The translations under genes and the position numbers were made by a program. Below, in pieces: positions 13,020 through 19,873 of a stretch of 23,656 nt of DNA; the stretch's first letter is position 1, and every line of letters starts with the position of its first letter. The stretch comes from a virus. Location: positions 1 to 23,656 of the IMG/VR virus record IMGVR_UViG_3300045772_000026; one strand, written 5' to 3'. The notes beneath the pieces are model-generated. The model searched no databases. It was not told the origin of the DNA and was given only the letters and a program-made list of their open reading frames with translations.

Positions 13020-13589
13020 ATGAACCACGAAGAGTTTTTACAACGCGAAACGACGGCCCGTCTGGAGCGACTGGAACAGCTTGCGAGAAAGATTCTCGCA
13101 AAGCTTGAACCGCGCTTGAGCAGCATCGGGATAATGTTCACATTTTCAACCGCAGTAGGAGACAACCCCATGAGCGCAGTAGCAGGTCCTGTAATTCTCA
13201 CAACGGCGGGCCAGGTCGCGACGGCCTCTGTTCTTGGCTTCGATCAGCTCGGTAACCCCTGGACGGGAACCATTCCGCCCGTAACCTTCAGCTCGTCCGA
13301 CACCGCGGGCGCCGTGTTTACCTCGGTCGACAACGGAGACGGCACCGCCACCGTTACGGCCGTAGCCAACGGCGTGGGCACACTCACCGCCAGCTTGACC
13401 AGTGCGGAAGGCCTCGCGCTCACGGACGGAGAAACCGTGACGGTGACGATCGGCGGCGGAACAGGCGGGACGCCGGTTCTGTCAAGCATCAAGGTGGCGT
13501 TCGACACCGGCACCGCCGCAACCGCCAGCACCAGAAACGCCGGGGCCGCTGACTCTGCAGCCGCTGGATACGTCGTAAAAAAAAACTAA
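13020..13589 (+). CDS. Ig-like-domain (Big_2-like) virion protein, frameshift zero-frame product
   Basis: 189 residues in the zero frame. Residues 1-50 are a coiled-coil-like start (EEFLQRETTARLERLEQLARKILAKLE). From ~52 to ~145 an Ig-like fold is evident (GPVILTTAGQVATASVLGFDQLGNP, FTSVDNGDGTATVTAVANGVGTLTAS, LTDGETVTVTI), the type found as accessory domains on phage virions, then a Gly-rich linker and an Ala/Thr tail. Two starts are plausible: 13020 (weak AAGG) and ATG 13170 at residue 51 (strong AGGAG, 9 bases), so long and short forms may exist. The coding region ends GTA AAA AAA AAC TAA, i.e. an A-AAA-AAC slippery heptamer at 13580-13586 directly before the stop, with an open -1 frame behind it. 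Confidence 0.7.
   Translation: MNHEEFLQRETTARLERLEQLARKILAKLEPRLSSIGIMFTFSTAVGDNPMSAVAGPVILTTAGQVATASVLGFDQLGNPWTGTIPPVTFSSSDTAGAVFTSVDNGDGTATVTAVANGVGTLTASLTSAEGLALTDGETVTVTIGGGTGGTPVLSSIKVAFDTGTAATASTRNAGAADSAAAGYVVKKN
13580..13586 (+). other. A-AAA-AAC slippery heptamer for -1 frameshifting
   Basis: Zero-frame codons read GTA AAA AAA AAC TAA, so the heptamer X-XXY-YYZ is A-AAA-AAC (part of a nine-A run, 13577-13585). The stop follows immediately at 13587-13589. This is the canonical form for programmed -1 frameshifting; it is also a run where a base-count error could mimic one. Confidence 0.6.
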
Positions 13590-13741
13590 CTGAGGCCGCG
13601 GTAACCGGCTCAGTTGCGGAGCCACGGACGCTGAGCCCAACACTGGGACCGCATCCGGACGCCGAGGAACTTGCCGAAGCGATCCCGGCACAAGACAACC
13701 GGACGCCTAACCAGAAAGTCAACGCGGCGAAACTGGGGTAA
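13586..13741 (+). CDS. Putative -1 frameshift extension of the Ig-like protein
   Basis: After a -1 slip at 13580-13586 the reading continues for 51 sense codons from CTA at 13586 to TAA at 13739-13741. It encodes an Ala/Pro/Glu-rich hydrophilic tail (LTEAAVTGSVAEPRTLSPTL, PHPDAEELAEAI, NRTPNQKVNAAKLG). The frame contains no ATG, GTG or TTG, so it could not be initiated separately. It ends exactly two bases before the ATG of the next gene (13744). Otherwise this would be an unusual 154-base gap in a densely packed block. It is probably a tail joined to the Ig domain in a minority of molecules; inferred, not shown. Confidence 0.5.
   Translation, partial: LTEAAVTGSVAEPRTLSPTLGPHPDAEELAEAIPAQDNRTPNQKVNAAKLG
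13588..13615 (+). promoter_or_regulatory. Inverted repeat just downstream of the slippery site
   Basis: AACTGAG (13588-13594) pairs perfectly with CTCAGTT (13609-13615), and CCG/CGG (13596-13598, 13606-13608) extends the stem past a one-base bulge. The stem begins one base after the heptamer, closer than the usual 5-9-base spacer, so only its inner part would act as a stimulatory structure. Confidence 0.4.
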
Positions 13742-13743
13742 CA

Positions 13744-14760
13744 ATGGGATCGAGCACCACAACGCTTCAATCGATCACCGATTACGTGGCGGCACTGGGA
13801 GAACTTGGCCCGGTGCTGCCCACGGGCGGTTTCAGCGTGAATACCGCGCTCGGAATTGGCACGGATGTGATGCTCGATTTGATTTCCCAGCGATTCAATT
13901 GGAAGTGGAACCGGATGAAAATTCCGCCGTTCTACACTTCAAGCTGGCAGCAGGACTATGCCGGTATAGGTTCTACATATTCCGCATATATAGGATGGCT
14001 GGAAGGCGGGTACTGGATCGACATAAACAACACCGCGCTGCCAAAGCCCACCTGGCCGATTGAAGCGGTGCGGGATTTGCCCGTGACGTCGATCAGCGGA
14101 AACCCGCCGGGAAAGATTGCGTGGCTGCCGAACAACCAGCTGAATCAGGGCGTGTGGCCGGGGCCGGGAAAGGCCTACACCGCGCCGTTGGGCGCTGTGA
14201 CGACGCCGACCAATCCGCCGATCAACATTCTGGATGCGAACGGCAACATTCTGGTTTTGACGACTTATGGCGTGACAGGCCTGGTTGCGCCCGTGCTGCC
14301 GGCGTCCTCGGCTGAGGGCGTGACGGTGAACGATGGAACCTGTGTGTGGACCGTGGCCGGGCCGAACTCCCAGGGCTTCAGGATTCTGCCCCTGCCCCCG
14401 CAGCAGGCCGTGGTTTACCAGATAAACGTGGTGGCGCAGATGCGCGCGCCCGCGCCGTTCACAAGCATGGGCGCATTCATCAACCCCGTGCCCGACGACT
14501 ATGCGAACTGGTTCAGGGACGGATTTATTGCCGGCTGCTACAAGATGAGCCCCAACCCCCAGATGAGGGCGCTTTACTATGGCCCGCGCGGGTTGCATGA
14601 AAGCTGGCTGGGAGCGATGGAAGCGGCCATGAAGCAGGGAGACCGGGAGACGGACAACGCCGGTTTCATTCCGGACCGAAGCGTGGTGGCGCCGCAAGGC
14701 GGCTACGACATTGGCCCGGCAAACCCGTTTATGCCCGGCTATATGTGGCCAGGGAGATAA
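13744..14760 (+). CDS. Neck/adaptor-like virion protein with inserted module
   Basis: 338 residues. The start follows the frameshift stop by two bases. Residues 1-135 (LQSITDYVAALGELGPVLP, MLDLISQRFNWKWNRMKIPPF, AYIGWLEGGYWIDI, ALPKPTWPIEAVRDL) and 215-338 (QQAVVYQINVVAQMRAPAPF, AFINPVPDDYANWFRDGFIAGCYKM, ALYYGPRGLHESWLGAM) suggest a virion connector. Between them (~143-208) is a module YTAPLG...YGVTGLVAPVLPASSAEGVTVNDGTCVWTVAGPN, the same pattern repeated in the large nozzle-like protein. The position after the capsid genes and before the nozzle-like protein is that of tail-tubular/adaptor proteins in podoviruses, but no diagnostic motif was seen. Confidence 0.5.
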   Translation: MGSSTTTLQSITDYVAALGELGPVLPTGGFSVNTALGIGTDVMLDLISQRFNWKWNRMKIPPFYTSSWQQDYAGIGSTYSAYIGWLEGGYWIDINNTALPKPTWPIEAVRDLPVTSISGNPPGKIAWLPNNQLNQGVWPGPGKAYTAPLGAVTTPTNPPINILDANGNILVLTTYGVTGLVAPVLPASSAEGVTVNDGTCVWTVAGPNSQGFRILPLPPQQAVVYQINVVAQMRAPAPFTSMGAFINPVPDDYANWFRDGFIAGCYKMSPNPQMRALYYGPRGLHESWLGAMEAAMKQGDRETDNAGFIPDRSVVAPQGGYDIGPANPFMPGYMWPGR

Positions 14761-19342: not shown

Positions 19343-19873
19343 ATGGCGCATATTCTCGGCATATTCGACGGTTTGGAACTACGCGCGGTGGGCGAGGAAG
19401 ACCGCGAAAGGCTGGAGAAGTGGATTGCGGCCGACGAGCACCATGCAGGGATACGCGATGCGGATTTTTTTATGGGTCTGCGCAAGAGCTTTAGCGGTGA
19501 AACCGAGGCCGATCCGCGCGCAACCTGCACGGCGCTTGAGGACGAGAAGGGCACGGTATTTTTTATCCGGCTGAGCAGGGCAACGCGGGTGAATATTCAG
19601 TTTGGCCCTGGAAAGACGGTGCACCAGCGCAAGCGGGTGGTGGAAGCGCTGGTGAAAGGAATGGCCTTTTTGGAAGTGGCTTTGGAGCGTGCGGGCGCGG
19701 AAGAGTGGATTTTTGAAACCGAAGACGCGGGCCTGGCCGAGATGGCGGGAAAGCACTTGGGATTCAGGGAAAGCCCGAATGAGCTGGTACGACTCATTGA
19801 GCCTTTGGAACCGCCTGAACGCGCCCCGCAGGCTGTGCGCGGGGAGCAACAGATAACCCAGGGGGTGCAGTGA
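19343..19873 (+). CDS. GNAT-like acyltransferase-fold protein
   Basis: 176 residues, ATG 19343 with GGGAG upstream. The N-terminal part (FDGLELRAVGEEDRERLEKWIAADEHHAG) and the later strand-helix-strand pattern (TVFFIRLSRATRVNIQFGP, RVVEALVKGMAFLEVALERAGAEEWIFETEDAGLAEMAGKHLGFRES) look like a compact GNAT fold: the GMAFLEVALERAG helix and AGKHLGFRES end are typical. The R/Q-x-x-G-x-G/A acetyl-CoA loop is not clearly present, so catalysis is doubtful. GNAT-like proteins are known among podovirus tail/internal genes. The TGA overlaps the next ATG (GTGATG). Confidence 0.5.
   Translation: MAHILGIFDGLELRAVGEEDRERLEKWIAADEHHAGIRDADFFMGLRKSFSGETEADPRATCTALEDEKGTVFFIRLSRATRVNIQFGPGKTVHQRKRVVEALVKGMAFLEVALERAGAEEWIFETEDAGLAEMAGKHLGFRESPNELVRLIEPLEPPERAPQAVRGEQQITQGVQ

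Follow-up and report, generated by a model that had tools for sequence, protein, structure and literature searches.

The gene for an Ig-like protein in the window, the whole 23,656-nucleotide stretch of the soil phage record IMGVR_UViG_3300045772_000026, very probably ends in a recoding site. A run of nine A's lies directly before the stop codon of this gene, and recoding at the run would fuse the Ig-like protein to a tail encoded in the -1 frame. The features of this junction are the following:

13020..13589, + strand: Ig-like protein gene, zero frame, 189 aa (open reading frame list, AF2 model, Foldseek, homologues)
13577..13586, + strand: slippery run AAAAAAAAAC (sequence; A9G at the equivalent place in the related contig L018)
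13587..13589, + strand: zero-frame stop TAA, adjoining the slippery run, likewise in L018
13588..13615, + strand: inverted repeat AACTGAG/CTCAGTT, arms at 13588-13594 and 13609-13615
13586..13741, + strand: -1 frame tail, 51 aa, LTEAAVTGSVAEPRTLSPTLGPHPDAEELAEAIPAQDNRTPNQKVNAAKLG, then TAA (translation, codon usage, motif homology)
13703..13720, + strand: TPNQKV motif in the tail, with counterparts in relatives, both in stand-alone genes and in in-frame tails of Ig proteins

The Ig-like gene extends from the ATG at 13020 to the TAA ending at 13589 and encodes, in this order, an N-terminal helix, an Ig β-sandwich, and a short linker leading to the stop. Its ending, GTA AAA AAA AAC TAA (13575-13589), contains the nine A's at 13577-13585, and the description of this ending in an earlier note on the same DNA, with a heptamer before the stop, matches the sequence to the base. 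Two overlapping heptamers lie in the zero frame of the run, A AAA AAA (13577-13583) and A AAA AAC (13580-13586). The gene end thus shows the arrangement typical of bacterial -1 frameshifting, a zero-frame X XXY YYZ heptamer shortly before a stop, and so does L018, with A AAA AAG before TAA. The earlier note had named A AAA AAC as the slip site; this heptamer is present in frame, with nothing to favor it over the overlapping A AAA AAA. In E. coli, A AAA AAC slips only weakly. Apart from the nine-A run, no homopolymer in the 23.7-kb window exceeds a length of seven. Runs of nine A or T occur three times in ∼680 kb from 20 related contigs, the pieces of which partly overlap, and two of the three are the Ig gene ends of the window and L018.

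The inverted repeat behind the run exists as previously described, but its proposed role as a stimulator of slippage is unsupported. The region folds no more stably than shuffled sequences (folding z-score of -0.6 in the window, not significant), and the minimum-energy fold at the junction uses a different, competing stem. Folding of the matching stretch of L018 against shuffles also reveals no excess stability, with the z-scores of both stretches within -0.1 to -0.7. The repeat was therefore rejected as a stimulator, since shuffles fold equally well and the rival stem forms.

The -1 frame is open for 51 codons, from 13586 to the TAA at 13739-13741, which lies 2 bases before the ATG of the next gene at 13744. 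No ATG, GTG, or TTG occurs in this frame downstream of its preceding stop, at 13550. The earlier note was accurate on the extent of the frame and its lack of start codons, and also in placing the Ig domain in the zero frame, so that a slip would append a tail rich in Pro, Ala, and Glu. The open frame by itself was rejected as evidence, because such openness arises by chance in about 30% of cases: 29% of the shuffled sequences and 32% of the stretches taken out of frame are open as long. Codon usage is more telling, with a log-odds score of +10.6 for the tail in the -1 frame compared to -15 in each of the other two forward frames. Out-of-frame control stretches show a mean of -19 (standard deviation of 8), and none reached the score of the tail. 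The tail of L018 scores +13.3, a value typical of the genes of that contig. The window tail further carries a C-terminal T/S-P-N-x-x-I/V motif, referred to here as the PN motif. A PN profile built without the two tails scores those of the window and L018 at 14.7 and 15.6 bits, values reached by 21 and 13 of 20,000 shuffles, respectively (∼1 in 1000 and ∼1 in 1500). Judged by codon usage and PN motif homology, the -1 frame after the site is protein coding. The core of the earlier note, an Ig-like gene to which a protein-coding tail is joined at -1 after a slippery run of A's, is supported.

Relatives were collected from IMG/VR via the next gene (17 and then 51 loci) and via the Ig gene (10 and then 27 loci), with overlap between the two sets. 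In L018 (contig 3300030114_000029), the Ig gene ends with GCA AAA AAA AAG TAA, followed by the -1 tail VTAEVKPAAVPAAAKVKPATASQPAQSPLGKPLSPNDLIRQSQ with the PN motif and then by the next gene, a probable adaptor gene. The order of Ig gene, nine A's, stop, -1 PN-motif tail, and adaptor gene is thus common to both phages, the Ig proteins of which are 62% and the adaptor proteins 72% identical. The sequence flanking the A-run aligns poorly between the two, with ∼14 extra codons before the run in the window and a different linker after it; the nine A's are kept nonetheless. Among the diverged relatives, L018 alone conserves this layout, and a scan of viral contigs for further cases of nine A's, stop, and PN motif returned only the L018 contig, the other matches being unrelated. 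The -1 form is represented by two examples only. One unrelated contig, L149, contains at ∼127-640 a frame of 112 codons that ends in nine A's and a stop, followed by a 59-codon -1 tail, possibly a frameshift of the tail-chaperone type.

It is highly improbable that the A-run was misread or misassembled and that the gene is in truth one simple open reading frame through the tail. One miscounted base in the run would suffice to produce this picture, and in-frame fusions of Ig domain and tail do occur in three relatives (L027, L102, and L103). Against this reading, two diverged phages, each from its own record, agree in the number of A's and in the stop, and the A-run is missing from the junction of the in-frame relatives; an error in both the window and L018 is very unlikely. 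The run could also act as a mutable on/off switch at the DNA level, with replication slippage altering the number of A's so that clones with another count make the fusion. Long A-runs are mutable, and the group has both in-frame and out-of-frame forms. A switch should, however, leave different counts behind, and exactly nine A's are present in both known out-of-frame copies, which makes this a very improbable explanation.

Ig-less relatives contain a small acidic gene with the PN motif at the position of the tail (for example, LSPNEKV, TPNQII, or KPNDLI), sometimes twice. In L027, L102, and L103, the Ig protein is encoded elsewhere in the genome and carries the PN motif in frame at its C terminus (DLTPNQKIAAAV and PLSPNQAIAGAA); these genomes are without a stand-alone PN gene. 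The earlier note had called for a comparison of homologues, and this comparison proves informative. Over 19 relative contigs and the window, some of the contigs being fragments and a few having been read except for short portions at their ends, 10 show a stand-alone PN gene and no Ig gene, 3 in two lineages (two of them nearly identical) show an Ig protein with an in-frame PN tail and no stand-alone gene, and 2, the window and its single relative at -1, show an Ig gene with a -1 PN tail and no stand-alone gene. Two more show an Ig gene with another tail, and three have neither an Ig gene nor a PN gene. Comparison of the contigs demonstrates that the tail is coding, that it matches both stand-alone and in-frame versions, and that the layout recurs in a diverged phage. 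The PN motif is not universal, since the Ig genes of L084 and L108, at the same position as in the window, carry an in-frame Ala-rich tail without it. Most Ig homologues outside this podovirus group are without a tail and without an A-run. No DNA or protein matches to the Ig gene were found in cultured phages, and a scan of bacterial genomes returned only a contig of an Acidobacteria metagenome-assembled genome (MAG) and a distant match to a Roseburia MAG protein.

The stand-alone gene found at this position in the 10 relatives raises the alternative that the tail is a separate gene, with its own start or with reinitiation after the TAA. The fifth codon of the L018 tail is a GTG and would suit this reading, but the absence of any ATG, GTG, or TTG from the -1 frame of the window makes it extremely improbable.

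Several further sequences were observed around this position or motif. In L044 (∼2830-2990), the slot is occupied by a small gene (MADENNEHQAPIAPTIEDRLAKLEEAH...) that resembles the N-terminal helix of the Ig gene and has neither Ig domain nor PN motif. L038 (2267-3000) contains two overlapping small genes before the adaptor gene, each with a terminal PN motif. A conserved gene of the window at 19343-19873, present in several relatives, includes a GF..SPNELV stretch; the SPNELV at 19772 was set aside as a tail motif because it belongs to this other gene and the match looks coincidental.

In the proposed mechanism, the nine A's before the stop would serve as the recoding site, and most products would stop at the TAA at 13587, giving the Ig-like protein alone. 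A fraction would enter the -1 frame, either by ribosomal -1 slippage on the lysine codons or, alternatively, through the addition of one A to the mRNA by RNA polymerase, and reading would continue for ∼51 codons. The resulting fusion would consist of the Ig protein, a Pro/Ala/Glu-rich linker, and the C-terminal T/S-P-N-x-x-I/V peptide. We infer the occurrence of the shift, its mechanism, and its rate from the sequence. In relatives, the small gene beside the adaptor gene carries the same PN peptide, sometimes in two copies, and the peptide switches between a gene of its own and a fusion; on these grounds, it probably serves to dock the Ig protein to some component of the head-tail junction. 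If so, the shift would control how much of the Ig protein is tethered and how much is not.

Recoding at the level of the mRNA, in which RNA polymerase slips while copying the nine A's and the transcript gains one A or loses two, is a sub-case with somewhat less than an even chance of being correct. The altered message would be read normally by ribosomes and give an identical fusion. Nine A's is a run length avoided in many bacterial genomes and is found in known users of such slippage, Thermus dnaX and insertion sequence (IS) elements (PMC1088944). Both phages keep all nine, although a ribosomal heptamer needs only six or seven, and no stimulatory structure was found at the junction. On the other hand, both sites are in-frame lysine heptamers adjoining the stop, as a ribosomal site requires, and runs of AAA lysine codons produce long A-runs anyway. 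Ribosomal and transcriptional slippage are indistinguishable from the sequence here.

The assignment of the zero-frame product as Ig-like is made by fold and not by family, since Pfam and PHROGs name no Ig family for the window protein, with no score sufficient for a curated family. The AF2 model (pLDDT of 80) shows an N-terminal helix at residues 3-29 and a β-sandwich at residues 33-142, an Ig fold of the Big_2 type found in phage domains. Foldseek matches to the model are phage and bacterial Ig-like domains, including vertex proteins of phage Douge (E value of 1.7e-4) and the Ig domain of lambda gpV (E value of 4e-3). Profile searching adds weak matches, to a solved Big_2 domain (E value of 0.018) and to S-layer Ig domains. 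The predicted model thus supports an Ig fold, and the position of the gene in the structural block together with the fold points to a putative virion protein.

The Ig gene contains one further conserved signal, which was unexpected, as was the duplicated strand described below:

13157..13172, + strand: internal Shine-Dalgarno sequence AGGAG (13157-13161) and in-frame ATG at 13170 (homologue comparison)

Among the 19 homologues with an identified internal Met, some of them close relatives, 17 show a Shine-Dalgarno sequence of at least 5 nt before this ATG, compared to 3.3% of 2410 control internal ATGs. The predicted second start would give an Ig core without the N-terminal helix and the first strand. 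The second start is conserved, and gene finders would not report a start of this kind. The internal ATG sits just after the strand LSSIGIMF, a motif that recurs near the C terminus as LSSIKVAF. This edge-strand motif, L-x-x-I-x-[ILV]-x-F, is present twice in all 17 homologues compared (at 13116-13139 and 13479-13502 in the window), flanking the rest of the domain, against a background of 31 occurrences in 278,217 positions. Many Ig homologues end right after the second copy. In the AF2 model, the first copy forms a confident strand and the second is a low-confidence stretch without secondary structure. The duplication suggests strand exchange between Ig units. A scheme with up to four products from the two starts and the slip, in which Ig units are linked by donor-strand exchange, is doubtful. 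If it were true, the internal-start product, without its own first strand and with a spare one, could chain head to tail, the long form would be the base of the chain, and the slipped form would be the end that docks on the virion.

The gene that follows the tail is predicted to encode an adaptor:

13744..14760, + strand: probable podovirus head-to-tail adaptor with an inserted β domain (VIA-align, Tunturi_3 relative)

Chains of podovirus tails and adaptors, among them SU10, N4, and KHP30, occupy nearly all top rows of the VIA-align comparison (Z of 9-10). The structure model itself is of low confidence (pLDDT of 52), and the product is a probable podovirus head-to-tail adaptor. The portal of the window matches the SU10 portal family. 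The only cultured relative of the next gene is found in the Tunturiibacter phage Tunturi_3, an acidobacterial podovirus (PMC11924767), and no relatives were found in bacterial genomes. The middle of the next gene, at 14140-14373 (model residues 133-210), matches a tailspike domain of cyanophage Pam1 (Z of 5.8; 57 residues aligned) and appears as an inserted β domain in an adaptor-like protein. The adaptor homologue of L018 (4001-5317), a 448-aa open frame, contains an insertion near query residues 187-206.

Translation of the adaptor gene may be coupled to that of the tail end, and the shift might serve the adaptor as well. Shifted ribosomes would end at 13741 and restart at the adaptor ATG, so that the slip would set adaptor synthesis. 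This addition is compatible with the fusion, as both can hold, and is unlikely. In both the window and L018, the adaptor start is preceded by almost no Shine-Dalgarno sequence (3 nt each, compared to 5 to 7 nt in several relatives), but some relatives with stand-alone genes are also weak there. The tail moreover retains a conserved motif, and therefore the peptide itself matters.

With respect to the recoded fusion, the phage group bears on a suggestion made in a review (PMC5009743). In that view, Ig domains are mobile among phage genes, chance decides whether they arrive in frame, and slippage rescues some of the cases. Within this one group, the tail occurs as a separate gene, as an in-frame fusion, and as a -1 fusion, and the same C-terminal peptide can be tracked through all three forms, which makes the chance-landing idea testable. 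An unnamed short motif may in addition tether proteins near the head-tail junction in phages of uncultured soil bacteria.

The joining of Ig-like domains to phage proteins by -1 shifts is on record (PMC5009743). Three cases in that source resemble the window: gene 10 of T3, the coat protein of which receives an Ig-like extension by a -1 frameshift, the counterpart of this gene in T7, and Lactobacillus phage A2. In each, -1 recoding near the end of a gene of the structural region yields both a short product and one with a C-terminal extension, as is proposed for the window. T3 and A2, unlike T7, share with the window the involvement of an Ig-like domain. In T3 and A2, however, a coat or tail protein is extended by the Ig domain, whereas in the window this domain lies in the zero frame and the extension is the short PN peptide. 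Kuravirus-like phages (the SU10 and YF01 group) extend the coat protein with an Ig-like domain by a frameshift (PMC9965538). They share with the window the podovirus type, the SU10-type portal family match, and the combination of an Ig-like domain with a frameshift, predicted in the case of the window. Unlike in these phages, the Ig domain of the window is encoded by a separate gene, several genes after the coat protein and beside the adaptor gene.

In lactococcal phages of the 936 group, the shift between the major tail protein and TpeX follows an Ig-fold adhesin domain and adds an extension (PMC6669499). This order of Ig fold, shift, and extension is the closest precedent for the window, although the Ig domain there belongs to the major tail protein and the extension is a long one with carbohydrate-binding modules. 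T4 Hoc (PMC10385173) is similar in having Ig-like domains followed by a conserved C-terminal part, which binds the virion, but it is described with a capsid-binding domain instead of a short peptide and without a frameshift. Thermus dnaX and the IS elements (PMC1088944) obtain two products from a nine-A run, as is proposed for the window, by mRNA slippage that is established in those systems and possible in the window. The window departs from the known pattern in that the Ig domain lies in the zero frame and the predicted slip would add a probable docking peptide, a pattern that appears partly reversed.
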